The notes beneath the pieces are model-generated. The model saw nothing but the letters and a program-made list of their open reading frames with translations. It made no database searches and was not told where the DNA came from. Made by a program: the position numbers and the translations under genes. Below, piece by piece: positions 46,147 through 64,000 of a stretch of DNA of 64,000 bases. Positions within the stretch are counted from its first letter, which is position 1, and every line of letters begins with the position of its first letter. Location: positions 434,001 through 498,000 of the forward strand of contig NZ_FNSF01000007.1 of assembly GCF_900105455.1 (NCBI RefSeq), written 5' to 3'. This stretch comes from Tenacibaculum sp. MAR_2009_124. Its GTDB lineage: Bacteria > Bacteroidota > Bacteroidia > Flavobacteriales > Flavobacteriaceae.

Positions 46147-46764
46147 CTACTTCAAATTTACTGAAATTTTTTCTAAAAAACTAATCGTATTACGCCCTTC
46201 CATAAACAGAAGATCTAGTATCGATAGATTTGGAAGAAAACCGTGCTTGTCATCAAACATTTGGATATAAGAATCCATTTCTATTGAAATACCTTTTTTG
46301 GCAAGAGCTAATTGACGAAAATCGTTGTCTACTTCAATAACATAATCCTCTGTTTTGATATAATCATGATCCAATTCAAGAGCTTCTGAAACAAAGCTAT
46401 ATGTATCGAGATTTACATCATGCAAATACTTGTATTTCTTAGAGAATATCGTAGTTAATTCGTCTTCGAAAAATTCGAAAAAAGGAGAGGATCTGTAGGC
46501 TGTTTGTAGCGATTTCAAATGCTGCTGTTGCCATGGGAAGTCATTTTCTACAAGAGTATCCCTAGTTTTCTTTCTGCCTTCGTTTGTTTTATGTTTTACT
46601 GGTATACTTAATGAAAGTTTTCCATTAGCTCCGTATATGCAGAAACGATTGCGATAGGTTTGTTTTTGAAAGTTATCATGAACTTCAAAAACAACACGAT
46701 CTGATTGATAAATTGCTGCATATTGAGAAATAGGAGCAAAGTAGGTGGGGATGAATAATGCCAT
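46147..46764 (-). CDS. WbqC family protein
   Basis: The 205-residue protein has LFIPTYFAPISQYAAIYQSDRVVFEVHDNFQKQTYRNRFCIYGANGKLSLSIPVKH, the WbqC N-terminal pattern, and YKTAYRSSPFF-like LKSLQTAYRSSPFFEFFEDEL. The family has been linked to glycan modification but is poorly understood. Its ATG overlaps the lepB stop by one base, showing a shared operon with lepB-dapB-DUF5683-parB-parA. Confidence 0.88.
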   Translation of the reverse strand: MALFIPTYFAPISQYAAIYQSDRVVFEVHDNFQKQTYRNRFCIYGANGKLSLSIPVKHKTNEGRKKTRDTLVENDFPWQQQHLKSLQTAYRSSPFFEFFEDELTTIFSKKYKYLHDVNLDTYSFVSEALELDHDYIKTEDYVIEVDNDFRQLALAKKGISIEMDSYIQMFDDKHGFLPNLSILDLLFMEGRNTISFLEKISVNLK

Positions 46765-48335
46765 TATACTTTTTTCTTCTTACTCTTTTTGATACTGTAA
46801 AAAATGTATCCAGCAATAAGTATTACTACAACCCATAAATAAGAAACGGGCTTACCACTACCCCCAACGGTAGTAAACATTCTATCCCAGCGAATTTTAT
46901 TGGTGTCTTTATCAATACTGAACCAAATCATAACAGGTTTCCCCACTACATGATCAAAAGGTACGTAACCCCAGTTTCTTGCATCTAAAGAACGTTGACG
47001 GTTATCACCCATCATCCAATAGTAATCTTGCTTAAAAGTATATTCAGAAACCTTTTTTCCGTTAATATAAATATCATCACCAAAAATAGTTAAGTCATTA
47101 TTCTCATATCTACGAATAATTTGTTCATAGAACGGAATAGTGGCATCATTAAGTTTTACAGTAACACCTTCTTTAGGAATATATATAGGTCCAAAATTAT
47201 CAGATGATGAAGGATATCTAGCATCATGAGGGAATACTGATTTATCAAAATTACCTCTAGGTTTTAATAATTTTTCAATACTTTTTACAATTGAATTCTT
47301 TTCTAAAGAAGCGGCCTCCTCGTCGGTCAAATTTAGGTAGTAGATACCATCATCTCCCACTTTACCTTCTTTAGCCATTTTATATCTCTCAATATCACCA
47401 CGACTGAATTTATTTCCGCCAACATCTACTTTAAAATACCATTGCGGTTTAGCTCTATCTGGTAAAATAGTTTTTTCACCATTAATATACACGTAACCGT
47501 CTCTAACTTCTAAACTATCGCCAGGTATTCCAACACATCTTTTAACATAGTTAGTTCTTTTATCAATAGGTTTATAAGTTTGTTTTCCTGAAACATCTCC
47601 CCACATAGTCTTTGTAGTATCAGCAGGCCAGCTAAATACAACAATTTCATTTCTTTTTATCTTTTGAACCCCTGGAAGCCTCATATATGGTAAAGAGAGC
47701 TTATTCTTCCAATTGTTCTTGTTTTCAGCTTTATCTTCAGACAAAAAAGATTTAACACCCAAGCCAGGAACTGTATCATGCACCATAGGTACAGAAACTG
47801 TTGTCATCGGAACGCGCGCACCATAATGAAATTTACTAACGAATAAATAATCTCCTACTAGTAATGTTTTTTCTAATGATGAAGTTGGTATGGTATAAGG
47901 TTGCATAAAGTAGGTATGCACCAAAGTGGCTGCAATAATAGCGAACGCAATTGAACTTAACCATTCATCAACCGCCGTAGGAGGTTTTAAACTTCTATTT
48001 TCCTTATATACAGCATCCGTTGCATAATTTATATAGAAAAGATAAAAGCCAAAAGTAACAATGGCAAGGATCGTATCTTTTCCTTTATTAAAACCAAAGC
48101 TTCTACATGTTTCTACCCAAACAATAGGGAACATTAAAAGATTTACGATAGGAATGAATAAAAGAATTACCCACCATTTTGAACGATTAATAATTCCCAT
48201 TAAAACAACAGCGTTGTATATCGGAACAGCTGCTTCCCAAGCCTGTCTTCCAGCCTTAACGTACAACTTCCATGTTCCAAGGAAATGAATTACTTGGATT
48301 ATCAAAAAGAAAATAAACCATTCAGTAAATGTCAT
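46764..48335 (-). CDS. lepB: Signal peptidase I, large Bacteroidota form
   Basis: The 523-residue protein has an N-terminal set of three to four membrane helices (DUF5684-like, about 1-115), then the peptidase. The catalytic Ser sits in TIPTSSLEKTLLVGDYLFVSKFHYGARVPMT near 152. The general-base Lys is in YVKRCVGIPGDSLEVRDGYVYINGE near 263. The C-terminal YYWMMGDNRQRSLDARNWGYVP box is near 440. A final membrane helix and Lys-rich tail end the protein. It cuts Sec signal peptides at the outer face of the inner membrane. The insert between Lys and the GDNR box is larger than in E. coli LepB. Confidence 0.96.
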   Translation of the reverse strand: MTFTEWFIFFLIIQVIHFLGTWKLYVKAGRQAWEAAVPIYNAVVLMGIINRSKWWVILLFIPIVNLLMFPIVWVETCRSFGFNKGKDTILAIVTFGFYLFYINYATDAVYKENRSLKPPTAVDEWLSSIAFAIIAATLVHTYFMQPYTIPTSSLEKTLLVGDYLFVSKFHYGARVPMTTVSVPMVHDTVPGLGVKSFLSEDKAENKNNWKNKLSLPYMRLPGVQKIKRNEIVVFSWPADTTKTMWGDVSGKQTYKPIDKRTNYVKRCVGIPGDSLEVRDGYVYINGEKTILPDRAKPQWYFKVDVGGNKFSRGDIERYKMAKEGKVGDDGIYYLNLTDEEAASLEKNSIVKSIEKLLKPRGNFDKSVFPHDARYPSSSDNFGPIYIPKEGVTVKLNDATIPFYEQIIRRYENNDLTIFGDDIYINGKKVSEYTFKQDYYWMMGDNRQRSLDARNWGYVPFDHVVGKPVMIWFSIDKDTNKIRWDRMFTTVGGSGKPVSYLWVVVILIAGYIFYSIKKSKKKKV

Positions 48336-48410: not shown

Positions 48411-49112
48411 TTAACCTAAGTTTAACACATCTTTCATGCTAAAAACTCCCGTTTTATCAACTAACCATTCGGCAGCAATTACTGCACCTAAAGCAAAACC
48501 TTGTCGGTTATGAGCGGTATGTTTTATATCAATAGAATCAACAATTGATTGGTATGAAGTTGTGTGAGTTCCAGGAACATCAGGAGTTCTTATAGCGGTA
48601 ATAGGAATGTTATTATTATCAGTATCACCATCCAAAGTCCAAGTGTTTTTTAGTGAGTTATTAATAATATCTTCAGCTAAAGTTATTGCGGTACCACTAG
48701 GAGCATCTAATTTTTTGGTATGATGAATTTCTTCAATACTCGTAGTATATTGCTCCAAATTTTTCATCATTTTAGCCAATTGCTTATTCAATTCAAAAAA
48801 GATATTGACTCCCAGGCTAAAGTTAGAGGCGTAAATAAAACCGCCCTTGTTATCATTGCAAAGCTTTACTACGTCGTCATAGTTATCCAACCAACCAGTG
48901 GTTCCTGAAACAACAGGAATATTGTTTGTTAAGCAGTTTGTGATATTATCATAAGCAATAGTTGGAATGCTAAAATCTATGGCAACATCGGCGTCTTTTA
49001 TATTATAGTTTTCTTTTCCAGAGTATTTTATTACGATTTCATGCCCACGTTGTAAAGCTATTTTCTCAATTTCTTTACCCATTCTACCGTATCCTAGTAA
49101 GGCTATTTTCAT
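48411..49112 (-). CDS. dapB: 4-hydroxy-tetrahydrodipicolinate reductase
   Basis: The 233-residue protein has the NAD(P)H loop ALLGYGRMGKEIE (about 3-15), the substrate loop VVSGTTGWLD, and the active-site region IEEIHHTKKLDAPSGTAITLAEDI with the catalytic His-His and Lys. It performs the second pathway-specific step of lysine and diaminopimelate synthesis, needed for peptidoglycan. It lies 4 bp after the DUF5683 gene stop. Confidence 0.97.
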   Translation of the reverse strand: MKIALLGYGRMGKEIEKIALQRGHEIVIKYSGKENYNIKDADVAIDFSIPTIAYDNITNCLTNNIPVVSGTTGWLDNYDDVVKLCNDNKGGFIYASNFSLGVNIFFELNKQLAKMMKNLEQYTTSIEEIHHTKKLDAPSGTAITLAEDIINNSLKNTWTLDGDTDNNNIPITAIRTPDVPGTHTTSYQSIVDSIDIKHTAHNRQGFALGAVIAAEWLVDKTGVFSMKDVLNLG

Positions 49113-49116
49113 TATT

Positions 49117-49695
49117 TTAGAAAGAATATTTAAAAGTTAAACCAACTCGCGGAGCCTCCTGAAACATGGGGTCCGTTGTGAGAGATGGGTTTATTGTTAA
49201 ATTGTCGTTTGTTTCGAACTGAAGTAAATGCGCGTTTACACTAGCTTCAACGATTTGAAGAACGTATAAAAGAACCCCTGTAAGTAATGATAAATCACGG
49301 TTTTTTCTTAATACTTTTTGGGCATTTTCTAAACCTGAAGTTGAAATTATTTGGTTACCATTATCATCCGTGAATTCATCTTTCAATCCTTGGGATCTTA
49401 ATCTGAATGCAGTTCTAAATCTGTCGTAGTCGTTACTATTTGTTATATAGTAGTAAGCACTTGCTCCAATCGCACCCCAAACAATTGGGGCTTTCCAGTA
49501 TTTTTTATTATATATCTGCCCTCCACCAGGAAATATAGCTGAATAAAAAGCAGCTTTAGATGGTGATAAAGGATTGTATAAATCTGTAGTTATTTGTGTT
49601 TTTTTGACCTTAATGTTTAATGAATCTTTTTGAGCATAGGTACTAAAAGATAACAAGAAGACTAAAAAAACAAATATGATTCTTTTTACTAACAA
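49117..49695 (-). CDS. DUF5683 family exported membrane protein
   Basis: The 192-residue protein has a signal peptide (MLVKRIIFVFLVFLLSFSTYAQ) and the DUF5683 core SPSKAAFYSAIFPGGGQIYNKKYWKAPIVWGAIGASAYYY. A second hydrophobic segment is LTGVLLYVLQIVEASVNAHLLQF. The function is unknown. It is placed between parB and dapB, a conserved order in Flavobacteriia. The TTG/ATG spacing to parB is one base. Confidence 0.88.
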   Translation of the reverse strand: MLVKRIIFVFLVFLLSFSTYAQKDSLNIKVKKTQITTDLYNPLSPSKAAFYSAIFPGGGQIYNKKYWKAPIVWGAIGASAYYYITNSNDYDRFRTAFRLRSQGLKDEFTDDNGNQIISTSGLENAQKVLRKNRDLSLLTGVLLYVLQIVEASVNAHLLQFETNDNLTINPSLTTDPMFQEAPRVGLTFKYSF

Positions 49696-50583
49696 TTATT
49701 GTAATAATTTTTTTATTCGATTAAAATCTTCTTCTGAATTAAAGTTAATCGATATTTTTCCTTTACCTCTATTGTTTACCGTTACATCAACTTTGTTGCC
49801 AAAGTAATCCGTCATCTCTTTCGCTCCATCAACTATATGTTTTGGTAAAGCTTTTTTCTTAGCAGCTTTAGTAATTGTTCCTGCTTTTAAGTTTTTAACC
49901 AAATCTTCAGTCTGTCTAACTGAAAGTTTATCACGAACAATTTTTTCGTAAATGTTTAATTGATCAGTATTGCTATCTACGTTAATTAAAGCTCTTCCAT
50001 GTCCCATTGAAATAAAACCATCTCTCATTCCCGTTTGAATGATTGGGTCTAATTTTAAAAGACGTAGATAATTTGTAACAGTAGAACGCTTTTTTCCCAC
50101 ACGAGTACTTAATTCTTCTTGAGTAAGCTGAATTTCATCTATTAAACGTTGATATGAAAGAGCTACCTCGATTGGATCCAGATTTTTACGTTGAATATTT
50201 TCAACTAATGCCATTTCCAGCATTTCCTGATCATTCGCCAATCTGATATAAGCAGGAATCTTTGTGTTGCCAATAAGTTTTGAAGCTCTAAAACGACGTT
50301 CTCCTGAAACTAACTGAAACTTATCACTATCAAGTTTACGAACGGTAATTGGCTGAATTACACCTAATTCTTTTATTGAACTGGCTAATTCTCTTAAAGC
50401 TTCTTCATCAAAATAAGTTCTGGGTTGGAAAGGGTTAACTTCTATCGACTTAACATCAATTTCTATAATGTTTCCTACCAGTTTGTCCGCATTCTTATCA
50501 GATGCTGAGCTAACTTCAGCTGTTTCTTTTAATAATGCCGATAAACCTCTACCTAGAGCTTGTTTTTTTGTTGCTTTTGCCAT
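49696..50583 (-). CDS. parB: Chromosome-partitioning protein ParB
   Basis: The 295-residue protein has the N-terminal ParA-stimulating Arg/Lys segment (KKQALGRGLSALL), the CTPase and ParB box ELASSIKELGVIQPITVRKL and LVSGERRFRASKLIG (GERR), and the helix-turn-helix LTQEELSTRVGKKRSTVTNYLRLLKL. A C-terminal dimerisation part follows. ParB loads at parS and acts with ParA in origin segregation. It is 8 bp downstream of the ParA coding region. Confidence 0.97.
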   Translation of the reverse strand: MAKATKKQALGRGLSALLKETAEVSSASDKNADKLVGNIIEIDVKSIEVNPFQPRTYFDEEALRELASSIKELGVIQPITVRKLDSDKFQLVSGERRFRASKLIGNTKIPAYIRLANDQEMLEMALVENIQRKNLDPIEVALSYQRLIDEIQLTQEELSTRVGKKRSTVTNYLRLLKLDPIIQTGMRDGFISMGHGRALINVDSNTDQLNIYEKIVRDKLSVRQTEDLVKNLKAGTITKAAKKKALPKHIVDGAKEMTDYFGNKVDVTVNNRGKGKISINFNSEEDFNRIKKLLQ

Positions 50584-50591
50584 TATTGTTT

Positions 50592-51357
50592 TTACGCTTT
50601 TTTGTTTAAAATTTCATTCGCCAAACTTAAGTAATTTACCGCACCTTTACTGGTTGCATCATAAGAAATAATGCTTTCACCATAACTTGGGGCTTCACTT
50701 AAACGAATATTTCTATGAACCACAGTTTCAAAAACCATTGAACTAAAATGTTTACGAACTTCTTCAACCACCTGATTCGATAAACGTAAACGTGGATCAT
50801 ACATGGTCAATAGTAAACCTTCAATAGCTAGACTTTGATTATGGATTTTTTGAACACTTTTAATAGTATTCAATAGTTTTCCAAGACCTTCAAGAGCAAA
50901 ATATTCACATTGGATAGGAATAATTACAGAATGAGCCGCAACTAATGAGTTTAGAGTAATTAAACCGAGAGAAGGGGCACAATCAATTAAGATATAATCA
51001 TAAGAGTCTATAACACTTTCTAAAGCTTTTTTCAACATGAACTCTCTTTGCTGTTTGTCAACTAGTTCAATTTCAATAGCTACTAAATCAATATGCGCCG
51101 GTATTAAGTCTACATTTGGAGATTCCGTAGTAACGATAGTTTCTTTAGGATCAATTGTATGTTCTAAAACTTGATATGTTCCAGCTTCAATACTTTCAAC
51201 ATCTATACCAAGTCCAGAAGTTGCATTTGCTTGAGGGTCAGCGTCTATCAATAGTACTTTTTTTTTCTAAAACACCTAAAGCTGCCGCTAAATTAACAGT
51301 TGTTGTTGTTTTACCAACACCACCTTTTTGATTTGCTATTGCAATAATTTTACCCAT
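50592..51357 (-). CDS. parA: Chromosome-partitioning ATPase ParA, frameshifted at an A9 homopolymer
   Basis: An ATG at 51357 starts [33 protein letters not shown] with the deviant Walker A motif (residues 11-18). The downstream frame continues [18 protein letters not shown] (Walker A-prime/switch) to the stop at 50592, ending [11 protein letters not shown]. The two parts are in different frames. The coding strand has nine As at 51258-51266 where eight would give the expected [12 protein letters not shown] join. Restoring the frame gives 254 residues, the normal ParA length. The cause may be a sequencing error, a real mutation or slippage on the A-run. The sequence is otherwise intact, so I list it as a CDS and not a decayed gene. 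Confidence 0.92.
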
Positions 51358-54972: not shown

Positions 54973-55830
54973 ATGAAGGAAGGACCAAAGTTGACTATTA
55001 GTGATTTTCAAAGTATTAAATCGAATGAAGAATTGATTGAAGTGGTCAAGAAGAAAGGGATTTCTATAGAAAAAGTTGAATCTAAGATTAAGTATGAAAA
55101 TGAGCTAAAATTGCTTCAGGTTGAATTAGTAAAGTTGCAGCAATGGATAGCGAAAAATAATAAGAGAGTAGCGGTAATTTTTGAAGGAAGAGATGCGGCA
55201 GGAAAAGGTGGTAGTATAAGAAGGTTTACTGAACATTTAAATCCGAGAACTATGCGATTGGTTGCCCTTAACAAACCTACTGAGGTTGAAAAAGGACAAT
55301 GGTATTTTCAAAGGTATATAAAGGAATTACCAAATCCAGGTGAAATTGTTTTTTTTGATAGAAGCTGGTACAATAGAGCGGTTGTTGAACCAGTCATGGG
55401 ATTCTGTACAGAAAACCAATACAAGAAATTTTTAGTGCAGGTTCCAGAATTTGAACATATGCTATACGAAGATGGAGTTGTTATTATTAAGTTTTGGTTG
55501 TCAATTTCAAAAACTGAACAATTGAGAAGATTTAATGCAAGAAATAACGACCCGCTAAAGCGTTGGAAATTTAGTCCAGTAGATAAGAAAGGGCAGGAGT
55601 TATGGGATAAGTATACATTTTATAAAGATGAAATGTTTAGCAAAACTCACACAACATATAGTCCTTGGATTGCAGTTAAAACAAATGATAAGAAAAAGGC
55701 TCGTATAGAATGTATACGACATGTTTTATCTCAGTTTAATTACGAAGGAAAAGAAGAATCAAAAACAATTTTAAACCCCGATCCGAATGTGGTAATGCGT
55801 TATTACCGATCGGTTAATCACTTAGATTAA
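54973..55830 (+). CDS. ppk2: Polyphosphate kinase 2, class I-type (first of a tandem pair)
   Basis: The 285-residue kinase has Walker A EGRDAAGKGGSI (71-82), an NPRTMRLVALNKPTEVEKGQWYFQRYIKELP block and the Walker B/lid stretch IVFFDRSWYNRAVVEPVMGFC. These are class I PPK2 landmarks (phosphorylating NDP with polyphosphate or the reverse). It has an N-terminal extension of about 40 residues relative to the minimal domain. The next gene, a clear paralogue, starts 3 bp after its stop. Confidence 0.95.
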   Translation: MKEGPKLTISDFQSIKSNEELIEVVKKKGISIEKVESKIKYENELKLLQVELVKLQQWIAKNNKRVAVIFEGRDAAGKGGSIRRFTEHLNPRTMRLVALNKPTEVEKGQWYFQRYIKELPNPGEIVFFDRSWYNRAVVEPVMGFCTENQYKKFLVQVPEFEHMLYEDGVVIIKFWLSISKTEQLRRFNARNNDPLKRWKFSPVDKKGQELWDKYTFYKDEMFSKTHTTYSPWIAVKTNDKKKARIECIRHVLSQFNYEGKEESKTILNPDPNVVMRYYRSVNHLD

Positions 55831-55833
55831 ACT

Positions 55834-56616
55834 ATGGAAAACTTAACTCAAAAAGACGTTAATAAGCTTAATACAACGAGAGGTTTAAAAGCGATATTGT
55901 CAAAAGAGCCTTACAATTTAGAAAGAGCTATTCGATATGTGAACTACGAACGAAAACTGAAAAAACTTCAGGTTGAATTAATTCGTTTGCAAACATGGGC
56001 AATAAAAAACGATGAAAGAATTATAGTAATTTTTGAAGGAAGAGATGCAGCCGGAAAAGGTGGTGCTATTCGAAGAATTACAGAACGTATAAACCCTCGA
56101 CATATGAGGATTGTTGCTTTACCTAAGCCTAATGAAGATGAGAAAACACAATGGTATTTTCAAAGATATGTAGAGCGATTTCCTAAAGCGGGTGAAATGA
56201 TTTTTTTCGATAGAAGCTGGTATAATAGGGCGGTAGTTGAACCTGTAAATGGTTTTTGTACTCCTGAAGAATATGAGGTTTTTATGAATCAAGTAAATGA
56301 TTTTGAAAGAATGATACTTGAGTCGGGAATTCGTTTGGTGAAAATATATATGTCTATTACGAAAAAGGAGCAAGCGAAACGATTTAACGAGATAAAAAAT
56401 GATCCATTAAAGCAATGGAAAATGACTCCTGTTGATGAGCGCGCTCAGGAACTTTGGGATGAATACACCAAATATAAACGCACGATGTTTTCAAAAACTA
56501 ATACAAAAACCTCTCCATGGAAAGTTATTAGAGCCAATAGAAAAACTATTGCAAGAATTAATGTGATAAATCATATTTTAAAAAGCATCCCTTACGATAA
56601 GCATACAGAAGTTTAG
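55834..56616 (+). CDS. ppk2: Polyphosphate kinase 2, class I-type (second of a tandem pair)
   Basis: The 260-residue kinase has Walker A EGRDAAGKGGAI (68-79), NPRHMRIVALPKPNEDEKTQWYFQRYVERFP and FFDRSWYNRAVVEPVNGFC, closely matching the preceding gene. Differences concentrate in the N-terminus and the last 40 residues, so the two may prefer different nucleotides or have become subunits of one enzyme. The 3-bp spacing indicates co-transcription and a local duplication. Confidence 0.94.
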   Translation: MENLTQKDVNKLNTTRGLKAILSKEPYNLERAIRYVNYERKLKKLQVELIRLQTWAIKNDERIIVIFEGRDAAGKGGAIRRITERINPRHMRIVALPKPNEDEKTQWYFQRYVERFPKAGEMIFFDRSWYNRAVVEPVNGFCTPEEYEVFMNQVNDFERMILESGIRLVKIYMSITKKEQAKRFNEIKNDPLKQWKMTPVDERAQELWDEYTKYKRTMFSKTNTKTSPWKVIRANRKTIARINVINHILKSIPYDKHTEV

Positions 56617-59484: not shown

Positions 59485-62400
59485 ATGATTAATTCAATGA
59501 ATTTGGAAAGGGATACCTTTTCCGGAAAGAGGAGTTCATGTGTCTACTTTGAAACGAAAAAAACTACAAGCTACAAGAGAAGTAATAAGATATTCATCTT
59601 ATTGATCCTGTTTCTTTTAATCCAATTGCAAACATTTGCGCAAACGCCTTCAATTGCATCAAGTGAGGGAACTGTTAATTGCGATAATTGTAGACCAAAT
59701 ACTAATTGGACAATAGTAATAGGAACTCCTGATGTTTCTAATAGATCAGTATCGGCAGCTGGTTCAATAACAGGAGGAGGAGAATCTTGGTATGAAGAAC
59801 CATTACCGTTACCTCCAACAGGCCATGAATATTGGATCTCACTTCGCGATCTAGGAGGTTCTTTCCTAGAAGAAATTATCGCTACAAATATTACAGGTCT
59901 TGTTGTTGGTCAAACATATGAAATAGAATTATATACTATGACTACTCGAGGTGAGTATTCTGAAGAATATAATGATTCTTTCTCGTACAAAATCGGATCG
60001 CTTACAAAACAAACTATAAGTTCAATTACCAGAGATAATTGGGGATTAACTAAAATAAGGTTTATAGCAAATGCATCAACTATGTCTTTGGAATTGTATC
60101 CAGGAAATAATTCTGGAGGGACAACAACTACATTTGAATCTGTGTTAATTTCTTTAGCGACAAATGCTATTAAATTAATCCCTGACTCAGACAATGATGG
60201 TGTTCTAGATGAGGCAGATTTAGATGACGATAATGACGGTATTTTAGATGTTGATGAATTAGGATGTTTTGTTCCTGAATCTTCAGCACCATCATCTGGG
60301 GTTATTGAATTCACGTCAACAACAACAAATATTGCTAGTGGTGAAAAATATGTTTTATCTAGTAGTCTTGATATGGGGATAAACTCTCTAACTATTGAAA
60401 CGGGAGGAGAGCTTTACTTATTACCGGATGTAGAACTAACAACGACTAATTTGAATGCAAGAGGTAAAATGTCTCTTTCGGATAAATCTGGAGTAATTAC
60501 TCGAGGAGCAATGGTTTTAGGCCAACATCCTGCAGCAGGAAGTGCAACGACTGAAATATTCATGGGAGTGGGGGCTTATTTTGTTGCTAGAGGTTCCATG
60601 GTTGTAGAGAATGATAAGGATTGGCCAATAGGAAATGTTACTATTGATATTTCTATGAGTTCGGCTTCATTTATAGAGGTATGTTCAACATTAACAGTTA
60701 GAGATAATAATGTATTCAAAAAAGTAGGGAATGACTTATATGGAAATGCTTTTGTTATCTCCAGAGATCAGGTGTCCTCTTCGAATTCGACATATACCTT
60801 ATCTAATACAGTAGGGGGAGGTATAAATTGGTTGGCATTATCAACAACAGGAGGAGTAACAGATAAATTAAACCCTGGAACAGCATCGTTTTGCGGAGAT
60901 AACGCCACCCCGGCTTCATGTTCATTTTGGCCTAATAATTTAACTATAGGAGCATGTGAAGAATCGAAAGCAATTATTGGAGATTTAGTAGATTTTTGTG
61001 CAGGAACCGGATGGCCATATTTTAGCAATGATGTTGATAAAGATGGAATTCCAAATTATTTAGATACTGATTCTGATAATGATGGATGTCCGGATGCAAT
61101 TGAAGGAGCTGAAAATGTTTCATCATCTGATTTAACTGGAGAAAGAATTAGTGGAGCAGTTGATGCTGATGGTGTCCCTATATTAGTCAATTCGGATGGT
61201 AGTCAAGGACAGGCGAATACTATTAATGTAGTTACGTCAAATCCAACGCCAGTTTCAGGAACGATAAACGGAGGAACAAATGTTTGTGTAGGTGAAACAA
61301 TTTCACTTATTTCGGATGGAGATTCTGGTGGTGTTTGGTCTAGTTCGAATACAGCTATAGCAACAGTAGATTCTTCGGGAGTCGTGGTAGGAGTAAGTCA
61401 AGGTTCTGCCAGTATTTTATATACTGTAACTTCATTAGGAGGATGTGAATACTCTTCTAGTATTAATGTTACAGTAAGTAGCCCCCCATCTACACCAGTA
61501 ACAGGAACAGTAACCCAACCAACATGTGTTGTATCAACGGGAAGTTTTCAGATTACAGATTACGATGCTAATAATACATATACCTTTTCTCCATCTATTG
61601 TTAGCTTATCAAAAAGTGGATTGGTAACAGCCAACACTGGTACTTATACATTCACAGTAACAAATACGGATGGATGTGTTTCTTCGGCGAGCGCGAATGT
61701 TGTTGTTAACGTTCAACCGTCTACACCAGTAGCACCAGTAGCAGGAACAGTAACCCAACCAACATGTGCTGTAGCAACGGGAAGTTTTCAGATTACAGAT
61801 TACGATGCTAATAATACATATACCTTTTCTCCATCTATTGTTAGCTTATCAAAAAGTGGATTGGTAACAGCCAACACTGGGACATATACATTCACAGTAA
61901 CAAATACGGATGGATGTGTTTCTTCGGCGAGCGCGAATGTTGTTGTTGACGTTCAACCATCTACACCAGTAGCACCAGTAGCAGGAACAGTAACCCAACC
62001 AACATGCGCTGTAGCAACGGGAAGTTTTCAGATTACAGATTACGATGTTAATAATACATATACCTTTTCTCCATCTATTGTTAGCTTATCAAAAAGTGGA
62101 TTGGTAACAGCCAACACTGGTACTTATACATTCACAGTAACAAATACGGATGGATGTGTTTCTTCGGCGAGCGCGAATGTTGTTGTTAACGTTCAACCAT
62201 CTACACCAGTAGCACCAGTAGCAGGAACAGTAACCCAACCAACATGTGCTGTAGCAACAGGAAGTTTTCAGATTACAGATTACGATGCTAATAATACATA
62301 TACCTTTTCTCCATCTATTATTAGCTTATCAAAAAGTGGATTGGTAACAGCCAACACTGGTATCTATACATTCACAGTAACAAATACGGATGGATGTGTT

Positions 62401-64000
62401 TCTTCGGCGAGCGCGAATGTTGTTGTTGACGCTCAACCGTCTACACCATCAGTACCAACAGTGGCAAGCACAGTTCAACCGACATGTGCAGTACCAACAG
62501 GAAGTATAGTATTTGCAACACAAGCAGGAGTAGCATATAGTATCGGAGGAGCTTTCCAAGCAAGTGAGACTTTCACAGGAGTAGCGCCAGGAACATATAC
62601 CTTAACGGTAAGAAGTACCACAGATAACACATGTACTAGGGATGCAGCTTCAACGGTAACAATTGATGCTGTACCCAATGCACCATCAGTACCAACAGTG
62701 GCAAGCACAGTTCAACCGACATGTGGAGTACCAACAGGAAGTATTGTATTTGCAACACAAGCAGGTGTAGCATATAGTATCGGAGGAGCTTTCCAAGCAA
62801 GTGAGACTTTCACAGGAGTAGCGCCAGGAACATATACCTTAACGGTAAGAAGCATCACAGATAACACATGTACTAGGGATGCAGCTTCAGTGGTAACAAT
62901 TAATGCTGTACCCAATGCACCATCAGTACCAACAGTGGCAAGCACAGTTCAACCGACATGTGGAGTACCAACAGGAAGTATTGTATTTGCAACACAAGCA
63001 GGTGTAGCATATAGTATCGGAGGAGCTTTCCAAGCAAGTGAGACTTTCACAGGAGTAGCGCCAGGAACATATACCTTAACGGTAAGAAGTACCACAGATA
63101 ACACATGTACTAGGGATGCAGCTTCAACGGTAACAATTGATGCTGTACCCAATGCACCATCAGTACCAACAGTAGCAAGCACAGTTCAACCGACATGTGG
63201 AATACCAACAGGAAGTATAGTATTTGCAACACAAGCAGATGTAGCATATAGTATCGGAGGAGCTTTCCAAGCAAGTGAGACTTTCACAGGAGTAGCGCCA
63301 GGAACGTATACCTTAACGGTAAGAAGCACTACAGATAACACATGTACTAGGGATGCAGCTTCAACGGTAACAATTGATGCTGTACCCAATGCACCATCAG
63401 TACCAACAGTAGCAAGCACAGTTCAACCGACATGTGCAGTACCAACAGGAAGTATTGTATTTACAACACAAGCAGGTGTAGCATATAGTATCGGAGGAGC
63501 TTTCCAAGCAAGTGAGACTTTCACAGGAGTAGCGCCAGGAACATATACCTTAACGGTAAGAAGTACCACAGATAACACATGTACTAGAGATGCAGCTTCA
63601 ACGGTAACAATTGATGCTGTACCCAATGCACCATCAGTACCAACAGTGGCAAGCACAGTTCAACCGACATGTGCAGTACCAACAGGAAGTATAGTATTTG
63701 CAACACAAGCAGGTGTAGCATATAGTATCGGAGGAGCTTTCCAAGCAAGTGAGACTTTCACAGGAGTAGCGCCAGGAACATATACTTTAACGGTAAGAAG
63801 CACTACAGATAACACATGTACTAGGGATGCAGCTTCAACGGTAACAATTGATGCTGTACCCAATGCACCATCAGTACCAACAGTAGCAAGCACAGTTCAA
63901 CCGACATGTGCAGTACCAACAGGAAGTATAGTATTTGCAACACAAGCAGGAGTAGCATATAGTATCGGAGGAGCTTTCCAAGCAAGTGAGACTTTCACAG
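59485..64000 (+). CDS. Giant secreted SprB-type repeat adhesin, 5' part (runs off the window)
   Basis: The open frame from ATG 59485 continues for more than 1500 codons to the window edge. A long charged N-region precedes a signal sequence (IFILLILFLLIQLQTFAQ, near 38-55). An unknown domain follows (about 60-230), then a thrombospondin type-3-like calcium motif (DSDNDGVLDEADLDDDNDG, near 233), a beta-helix-like stretch (about 275-430), a second calcium motif (DVDKDGIPNYLDTDSDNDG, near 515) and a Big-2-like Ig domain (about 590-670). Then come four 80-residue repeats and six-plus 79-residue repeats with PTC and TC cysteines. The repeat style matches SprB-type gliding adhesins exported by the type IX system. 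The C-terminal secretion domain is outside the window. Confidence 0.9.
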   Translation, partial: MINSMNLERDTFSGKRSSCVYFETKKTTSYKRSNKIFILLILFLLIQLQTFAQTPSIASSEGTVNCDNCRPNTNWTIVIGTPDVSNRSVSAAGSITGGGESWYEEPLPLPPTGHEYWISLRDLGGSFLEEIIATNITGLVVGQTYEIELYTMTTRGEYSEEYNDSFSYKIGSLTKQTISSITRDNWGLTKIRFIANASTMSLELYPGNNSGGTTTTFESVLISLATNAIKLIPDSDNDGVLDEADLDDDNDGILDVDELGCFVPESSAPSSGVIEFTSTTTNIASGEKYVLSSSLDMGINSLTIETGGELYLLPDVELTTTNLNARGKMSLSDKSGVITRGAMVLGQHPAAGSATTEIFMGVGAYFVARGSMVVENDKDWPIGNVTIDISMSSASFIEVCSTLTVRDNNVFKKVGNDLYGNAFVISRDQVSSSNSTYTLSNTVGGGINWLALSTTGGVTDKLNPGTASFCGDNATPASCSFWPNNLTIGACEESKAIIGDLVDFCAGTGWPYFSNDVDKDGIPNYLDTDSDNDGCPDAIEGAENVSSSDLTGERISGAVDADGVPILVNSDGSQGQANTINVVTSNPTPVSGTINGGTNVCVGETISLISDGDSGGVWSSSNTAIATVDSSGVVVGVSQGSASILYTVTSLGGCEYSSSINVTVSSPPSTPVTGTVTQPTCVVSTGSFQITDYDANNTYTFSPSIVSLSKSGLVTANTGTYTFTVTNTDGCVSSASANVVVNVQPSTPVAPVAGTVTQPTCAVATGSFQITDYDANNTYTFSPSIVSLSKSGLVTANTGTYTFTVTNTDGCVSSASANVVVDVQPSTPVAPVAGTVTQPTCAVATGSFQITDYDVNNTYTFSPSIVSLSKSGLVTANTGTYTFTVTNTDGCVSSASANVVVNVQPSTPVAPVAGTVTQPTCAVATGSFQITDYDANNTYTFSPSIISLSKSGLVTANTGIYTFTVTNTDGCVSSASANVVVDAQPSTPSVPTVASTVQPTCAVPTGSIVFATQAGVAYSIGGAFQASETFTGVAPGTYTLTVRSTTDNTCTRDAASTVTIDAVPNAPSVPTVASTVQPTCGVPTGSIVFATQAGVAYSIGGAFQASETFTGVAPGTYTLTVRSITDNTCTRDAASVVTINAVPNAPSVPTVASTVQPTCGVPTGSIVFATQAGVAYSIGGAFQASETFTGVAPGTYTLTVRSTTDNTCTRDAASTVTIDAVPNAPSVPTVASTVQPTCGIPTGSIVFATQADVAYSIGGAFQASETFTGVAPGTYTLTVRSTTDNTCTRDAASTVTIDAVPNAPSVPTVASTVQPTCAVPTGSIVFTTQAGVAYSIGGAFQASETFTGVAPGTYTLTVRSTTDNTCTRDAASTVTIDAVPNAPSVPTVASTVQPTCAVPTGSIVFATQAGVAYSIGGAFQASETFTGVAPGTYTLTVRSTTDNTCTRDAASTVTIDAVPNAPSVPTVASTVQPTCAVPTGSIVFATQAGVAYSIGGAFQASETFT
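61507..62466 (+). repeat. Array A: four tandem 240-bp repeats in the adhesin gene
   Basis: Units start at 61507, 61747, 61987 and 62227, each opening ACAGTAACCCAACCAACATG. They encode 80-residue modules with TQPTC at the start and DGCVSSASANVVV near the end. Units are nearly identical at DNA level, differing at a handful of positions. Confidence 0.9.
62470..64000 (+). repeat. Array B: six complete and one partial 237-bp repeats in the adhesin gene
   Basis: Units start at 62470, 62707, 62944, 63181, 63418, 63655 and 63892, each opening ACAGTTCAACCGACATGTG. They encode 79-residue SprB-like modules (VQPTC...GVAPGTYTLTVRS...NTCTRDAASTVTI). The array continues beyond the window, so the copy number is unknown. 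Confidence 0.93.

Follow-up and report, generated by a model that had tools for sequence, protein, structure and literature searches.

A nine-adenine run splits parA in the genome assembly of Tenacibaculum sp. MAR_2009_124

Results

The parA-parB locus

The window analysed here is a 64-kb stretch of the assembled genome of Tenacibaculum sp. MAR_2009_124 (G000:C2:434001-498000), and all short coordinates below refer to it. Its minus strand carries a soj-type parA gene with its ATG at 51357 and its expected end at 50592. Exactly nine consecutive As (51258-51266) interrupt the gene, and the 5′ and 3′ parts lie in different frames. The 5′ part, from the ATG to the base before the run (51267-51357, minus strand), encodes the P-loop (KGGVGKT) in frame 0, as seen from the sequence, the Pfam family AAA_31 and unbroken relatives. 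Read as it stands, frame 0 (51238-51357, minus strand) yields 39 amino acids and closes at a TGA stop (51238-51240). The 3′ part (50592-51257, minus strand), identified by the same three kinds of evidence, continues in the shifted frame, which is open from 51266 over 224 codons to the normal stop ending at 50592 (...NKKA) and contains no internal stop. The two parts match positions 1-32 and 31-177 of the 177 positions of AAA_31, and the P-loop KGGVGKT and the LLIDADPQ strand of a ParA are both present in one domain, though in two frames. The split is thus confirmed in the sequence: an earlier note on this DNA, which placed a broken parA with two intact halves at the A9 run between 50592 and 51357, was right about the split and its place.

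Directly downstream, 8 bases from the parA stop, lies an intact parB of 295 aa (49696-50583, minus strand) that scores above the cut-off of TIGR00180, as expected beside a ParA. It is followed on the same strand by open reading frames of 192 aa (49117-49695), 233 aa (48411-49112) and 523 aa (46764-48335), of which we take the second to be dapB-like and the third to resemble the signal peptidase gene lepB. Of seven solved sequences matched by ParA, five bear the name ParA, Soj or segregation protein. A genome-wide search with the 219-aa 3′ part found one place in the source genome, a full-length ParA query of 254 aa gave four matches, and a search with AAA_31 returned both parA halves and three further matches, whose open frames measure 405, 822 and 278 aa.

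Rfam and tRNA scans of the window found nothing. At its far end (59485-63999) begins a very long protein that is repetitive and looks secreted, with 1505 aa inside the window before the frame runs off the end and with repeats of roughly 75-80 aa; short matches to this region are scattered over relatives, and the G+C content at 60001-64000 is 41%, compared with 30-33% in the remainder. Two adjacent related genes of 285 and 260 aa at 54973-56616 presumably belong to the polyphosphate kinase 2 family.

The break in relatives

The genus was searched with the 219-aa 3′ part (97 genomes) and with a full-length 254-aa relative (166 genomes, the source genome included). Not counting the source genome, the best ParA match had an E value of 7.1e-135 or better in 152 of the 166, and in the 150 of these that are listed it ran from query residue 1 to 252-254 of 254 without stops, in frames of 254-302 aa. 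Outside these 150, G039 was unbroken in the 219-aa search, and G143 is counted among the 152 by its E value, its locus lying outside those for which unbroken frames are shown. The 14 exceptions are the source genome itself; six genomes at least 95% complete that have no close match (G008, G018, G100, G101, G103 and G113), G008 and G018 giving nothing closer than a relative of 40-41% identity in the 219-aa search; four genomes that are 53-82% complete (G030, G056, G087 and G126); G068, where ParA lies in pieces on two contigs; G082 (69% complete), which is unbroken at the parA site and breaks later in the gene; and G078. The A9 break occurs in none of the unbroken relatives seen with either query.

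At the same site G078 has seven As, which break the frame in the opposite direction. G078 is a noisy assembly: in 80 kb, 5 of 27 genes with homologues are broken (six split regions, two of them parA). A run length that differs between related strains would mark a phase-variable gene; apart from the A9, the sequences read show one length change at the run that breaks the frame, the A7 of G078, and with so many broken genes around it this apparent second case of length variation was set aside.

Composition of the A run

Runs of nine As are in no excess in the window, where they occur at three places (four overlapping matches) compared with 25.9 expected from shuffles. In 800 kb of the 5.52 Mb of the source genome, open frames of 100 aa or more fully contain 21 A or T runs of exactly nine and two of ten; a nine-base run alone therefore does not imply a break. 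The share of A/T runs that lie inside open frames nevertheless falls from 1709 of 2124 at length six to 21 of 44 at length nine in the stretches taken, which have about 32% G+C.

The parA run was read in 124 loci, 80 family-wide and 44 from the genus, among which are four identical copies, some from one genome entered twice; G078 and G082 were left out of the counts. Eight As in frame are found most often (in 68 of the 124 loci and in 64 of the 120 distinct sequences), in agreement with the claim of the earlier note that one base separates the split gene from a fused one. The fraction of A at the third position of the three codons of the run is 0.825, 0.817 and 0.836, and the other columns of parA have means of 0.81 for Lys (10 columns) and 0.84 for Glu (14 columns). 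Multiplied together on the assumption of independence, with a correction for the few sequences that lack Lys, the fractions for the run predict A8 at a frequency of about 0.52, and the observed value is 0.53. A8 therefore needs no cause beyond codon use in the gene, and a conserved slippage tract was rejected, the codons of the run being no richer in third-position A than Lys and Glu codons at the other columns of parA.

A contrary comparison comes from Glu-Lys-Lys elsewhere, for which long stretches of three genomes use A8 in 10-24% of cases: 5 of 49 and 13 of 54 for the source genome, 26 of 111 for G002 and 11 of 55 for G116; in the same loci the figures are 52 of 143 (36%) elsewhere and 68 of 115 (59%) at the parA site, the control differing from that site in gene and ancestry. 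Because the within-gene control shows no excess, we read the difference as probably reflecting the codon use of the gene together with shared ancestry, and the numbers leave room for something that favours A8 at this site. The nearest of 17 relatives by dS, G158, has GAG AAA AAA, a run of six.

Selection beyond the run

Past the run, the parA codons compared with those of G158 give a dN of 0.025 and a dS of 0.53, and dN is 0.060-0.121 against the other 16 relatives compared. The source genome and G158 differ at 12 amino acids, three derived in the former, five in the latter and four ambiguous. As regards decay to a pseudogene, there is one frame break, there are no further stops, and dN/dS is still low. 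The codons beyond the run are still constrained, which leaves three readings: no break in the cell, a very young one, or one that is corrected during expression.

Slippage and frameshifting as possible correction

The earlier note suggested that, if the split is real, the level of ParA would depend on slippage. On such a reading the break would be real and kept, and transcriptional slippage on A9 would restore the frame in a minority of mRNAs, giving a low, set level of full-length ParA. The length of the run is suggestive, nine being where avoidance of A/T runs in genes starts in many bacteria (PMC1088944), and the fall of the in-frame share in the source genome points the same way. Rescue of poly(A)-tract frame breaks by transcriptional slippage has been proposed as a possibility in Blochmannia (PMC3017870), and in Citrobacter rodentium tssM an A11 run was shown by experiment to cause transcriptional frameshifting in which As are added (PMC4256274). 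Buchnera transcripts do show single-base deletions in runs, more of them the longer the run (PMC5574713), so that some A8 transcripts are possible. The commonness of A8 at the parA site relative to Glu-Lys-Lys elsewhere and the intact constraint past the run would also suit such a mechanism.

The direction of the repair speaks against it, because eight or eleven As are needed, that is, the loss of one A or the gain of two. The transcriptome survey of E. coli and Buchnera reports that one-base gains dominate in A/T runs, the loss of one being rarer; homopolymers held 151 of the 157 insertions in Buchnera and 16 of its 57 deletions, and the authors detected no restored frame (PMC5574713). The run does have the length of about nine or more As expected of programmed slippage sites, but neither the frame break nor the tract is conserved as such among the relatives seen: no unbroken relative shares the break, and A8, although the commonest state when the relatives are compared for conserved A runs, is only as frequent as expected from codon bias within the gene. 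If the DNA does have nine As, some leakage at the run is likely, given that avoidance starts at this length in many genomes (PMC1088944) and that the in-frame share falls here. Such leakage is not control, and on the sequences compared no conserved feature would support control; a level of ParA set by slippage, as the earlier note had it, is very unlikely. We give just as little credence to an A9 in the living cell with full-length ParA made from slipped transcripts only, in trace and noisy amounts, beside a ParB that has been kept. Were it true, a Tenacibaculum-like bacterium with a 5.5-Mb genome would partition its chromosome on that supply, and nine As in the DNA would make the locus a test case for slippage sustaining a housekeeping gene in a full-sized genome.

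Restoration of the ParA frame during translation, on the A run or at the stop, is more improbable still. The tract does contain A AAA AAA heptamers, and the frame-0 TGA is followed by C; UGA-C is a weak stop context (cf. prfB). On A AAA AAA ribosomes usually shift by -1, which here leads to the third frame and not to that of ParA. A +1 shift at the stop would give STIDRR in place of VLLIDA and spoil a conserved strand, and the break is not conserved in relatives. In the literature we found no paper on a Tenacibaculum ParA with a frameshift.

Quality of the assembly

The source assembly has 5.52 Mb in 8 contigs and is 99.99% complete. When it was compared with 400 kb of G002, 88 query frames were matched and one was split, namely parA. 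A census of contig C2 against G002, G116, G078 and the loci of other relatives likewise found parA as the one broken gene among 140, and the same census gave 0 of 115 for G002 and 0 of 127 for G116. Against G158, G003, G002 and G116, three of 192 genes were broken, parA and two more, each of the latter seen via a single G158 query. The first, which we take to be TonB-plug-like, lacks one base (about G000:C2:304706; 207 aa in G158), and the second has an extra T, with T8 where G158 has TTTCTTT (about G000:C2:410120; 347 aa in G158); two of the three changes thus consist of one base added to a run of A or T. The reverse census listed one case among 173 genes of G158, which we read as the second of these loci seen via the broken copy in the source genome and not as a true break in G158.

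Among the A/T runs in the stretches covered by homologues, eight nine-base and 38 eight-base ones, only the parA run and the T8 coincide with a detected split. A fourth candidate from a nucleotide alignment was dropped, as it lies upstream of the conserved start, and the other gaps in that alignment were mostly compensated or at gene ends. In 400 kb of contig C1, one gene had a homologue in the sampled relatives, which makes that stretch uninformative on breaks. Since two more breaks appeared on adding more of G158, the assembly is not called error-free; the three changes fit residual indel error and also an ordinary number of young pseudogenes, and the counts do not separate the two.

The partition system

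The six genomes without a close ParA also gave no match to the ParB of the source genome and none to TIGR00180, which is present in the other four genomes searched, the source genome included. These six genomes are 2.6-2.9 Mb in size, G101 and G113 being single-contig assemblies, and it looks as if they have lost both components of the chromosomal partition system together. With ParB intact next to a broken ParA, the source genome departs from this genus pattern, which favours either an error or a very young mutation.

The consensus parS has no exact site in the source genome. With up to two mismatches there are 26 places, compared with 9 for the reversed control, an excess that recurs in genomes lacking both ParA and ParB (22 vs 8 and 21 vs 9). 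Candidate parS clusters, each with four near-parS palindromes spread over about 7-9 kb, lie in two species at G000:C4:853194-859949 and G116:C1:88495-97358 (e.g. TGTTCCACATGGAACA and AGTTCCACGTGGAACT); the lack of an exact site and the equal excess in genomes devoid of ParA and ParB argue against them.

Discussion

We consider the ninth A to be a one-base length error in the assembly at a natural A8 tract, with a probability of roughly one half. The native tract would read GAA AAA AAA (Glu-Lys-Lys) and lead directly into the VLLIDADPQ strand of ParA, the extra base would be missing from the DNA of the cell, and the organism itself would have an unbroken parA-parB operon, as in its relatives. 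At least 150 genomes of the genus are unbroken and the site most often reads A8 in frame, the same assembly has two more frame breaks of a single base, the only other frame-breaking length change at the site comes from a noisy genome, and the codons beyond the run are constrained, all of which speak for this reading. So does the expectation of the GeneTack authors that lone, homology-supported frame breaks are sequencing errors (PMC3711429), and the earlier note was justified in warning that A runs of this kind attract them. Weighing against an error are the good quality of the assembly (8 contigs, 99.99% completeness and one broken gene in 140 against the other relatives), the splitting of only two among the eight nine-base and 38 eight-base runs, and the fact that three broken genes in 192 could be ordinary young pseudogenes. 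The contrast with G158, where none of 173 genes has a true break, is too small to prove error.

A real extra A is only somewhat less probable. It would have arisen by recent replication slippage in the A8 tract, perhaps in culture, and would have made parA a young pseudogene in a strain that keeps ParB and lives without ParA. Long A runs are likely hypermutable through replication slippage (PMC1088944), the assembly is otherwise fairly clean, and the otherwise unbroken halves suit a very recent event. Life without a close ParA is evidently possible in the genus, as the six genomes at least 95% complete illustrate, two of them in a single contig, but these also miss ParB, which is intact here, and the break is known from one genome of the species. 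If the extra base were confirmed in the DNA, this would be a strain with ParB and without ParA, where the six genomes tested miss both together. The split parA is a caution against reading such a break as a natural loss or a switch before the reads have been checked.

Comparison with known systems

The locus closely resembles the chromosomal arrangement of Soj/ParA beside Spo0J/ParB, with the same order of parA and parB and the P-loop, and differs from it in that parA is split in the assembly. The frame breaks in poly(A) runs of insect endosymbionts such as Blochmannia likewise arise from the change of one base in a poly(A) run, in genes that are otherwise constrained; some of those breaks are common to several species, whereas this one occurs in a single genome of 5.5 Mb (PMC3017870). 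C. rodentium tssM also has an A run beside a premature stop and an intact downstream part, but its run is A11, As are added and the frameshifting is experimentally established, while the A9 of parA is unconserved and would need one A fewer or two more (PMC4256274). The locus also resembles the singletons described by the GeneTack authors, in which one base in an A/T run of a single genome separates two open halves whose homologues are unbroken (PMC3711429), with the difference that the error proposed for the Tenacibaculum parA is deduced from the comparison of sequences.
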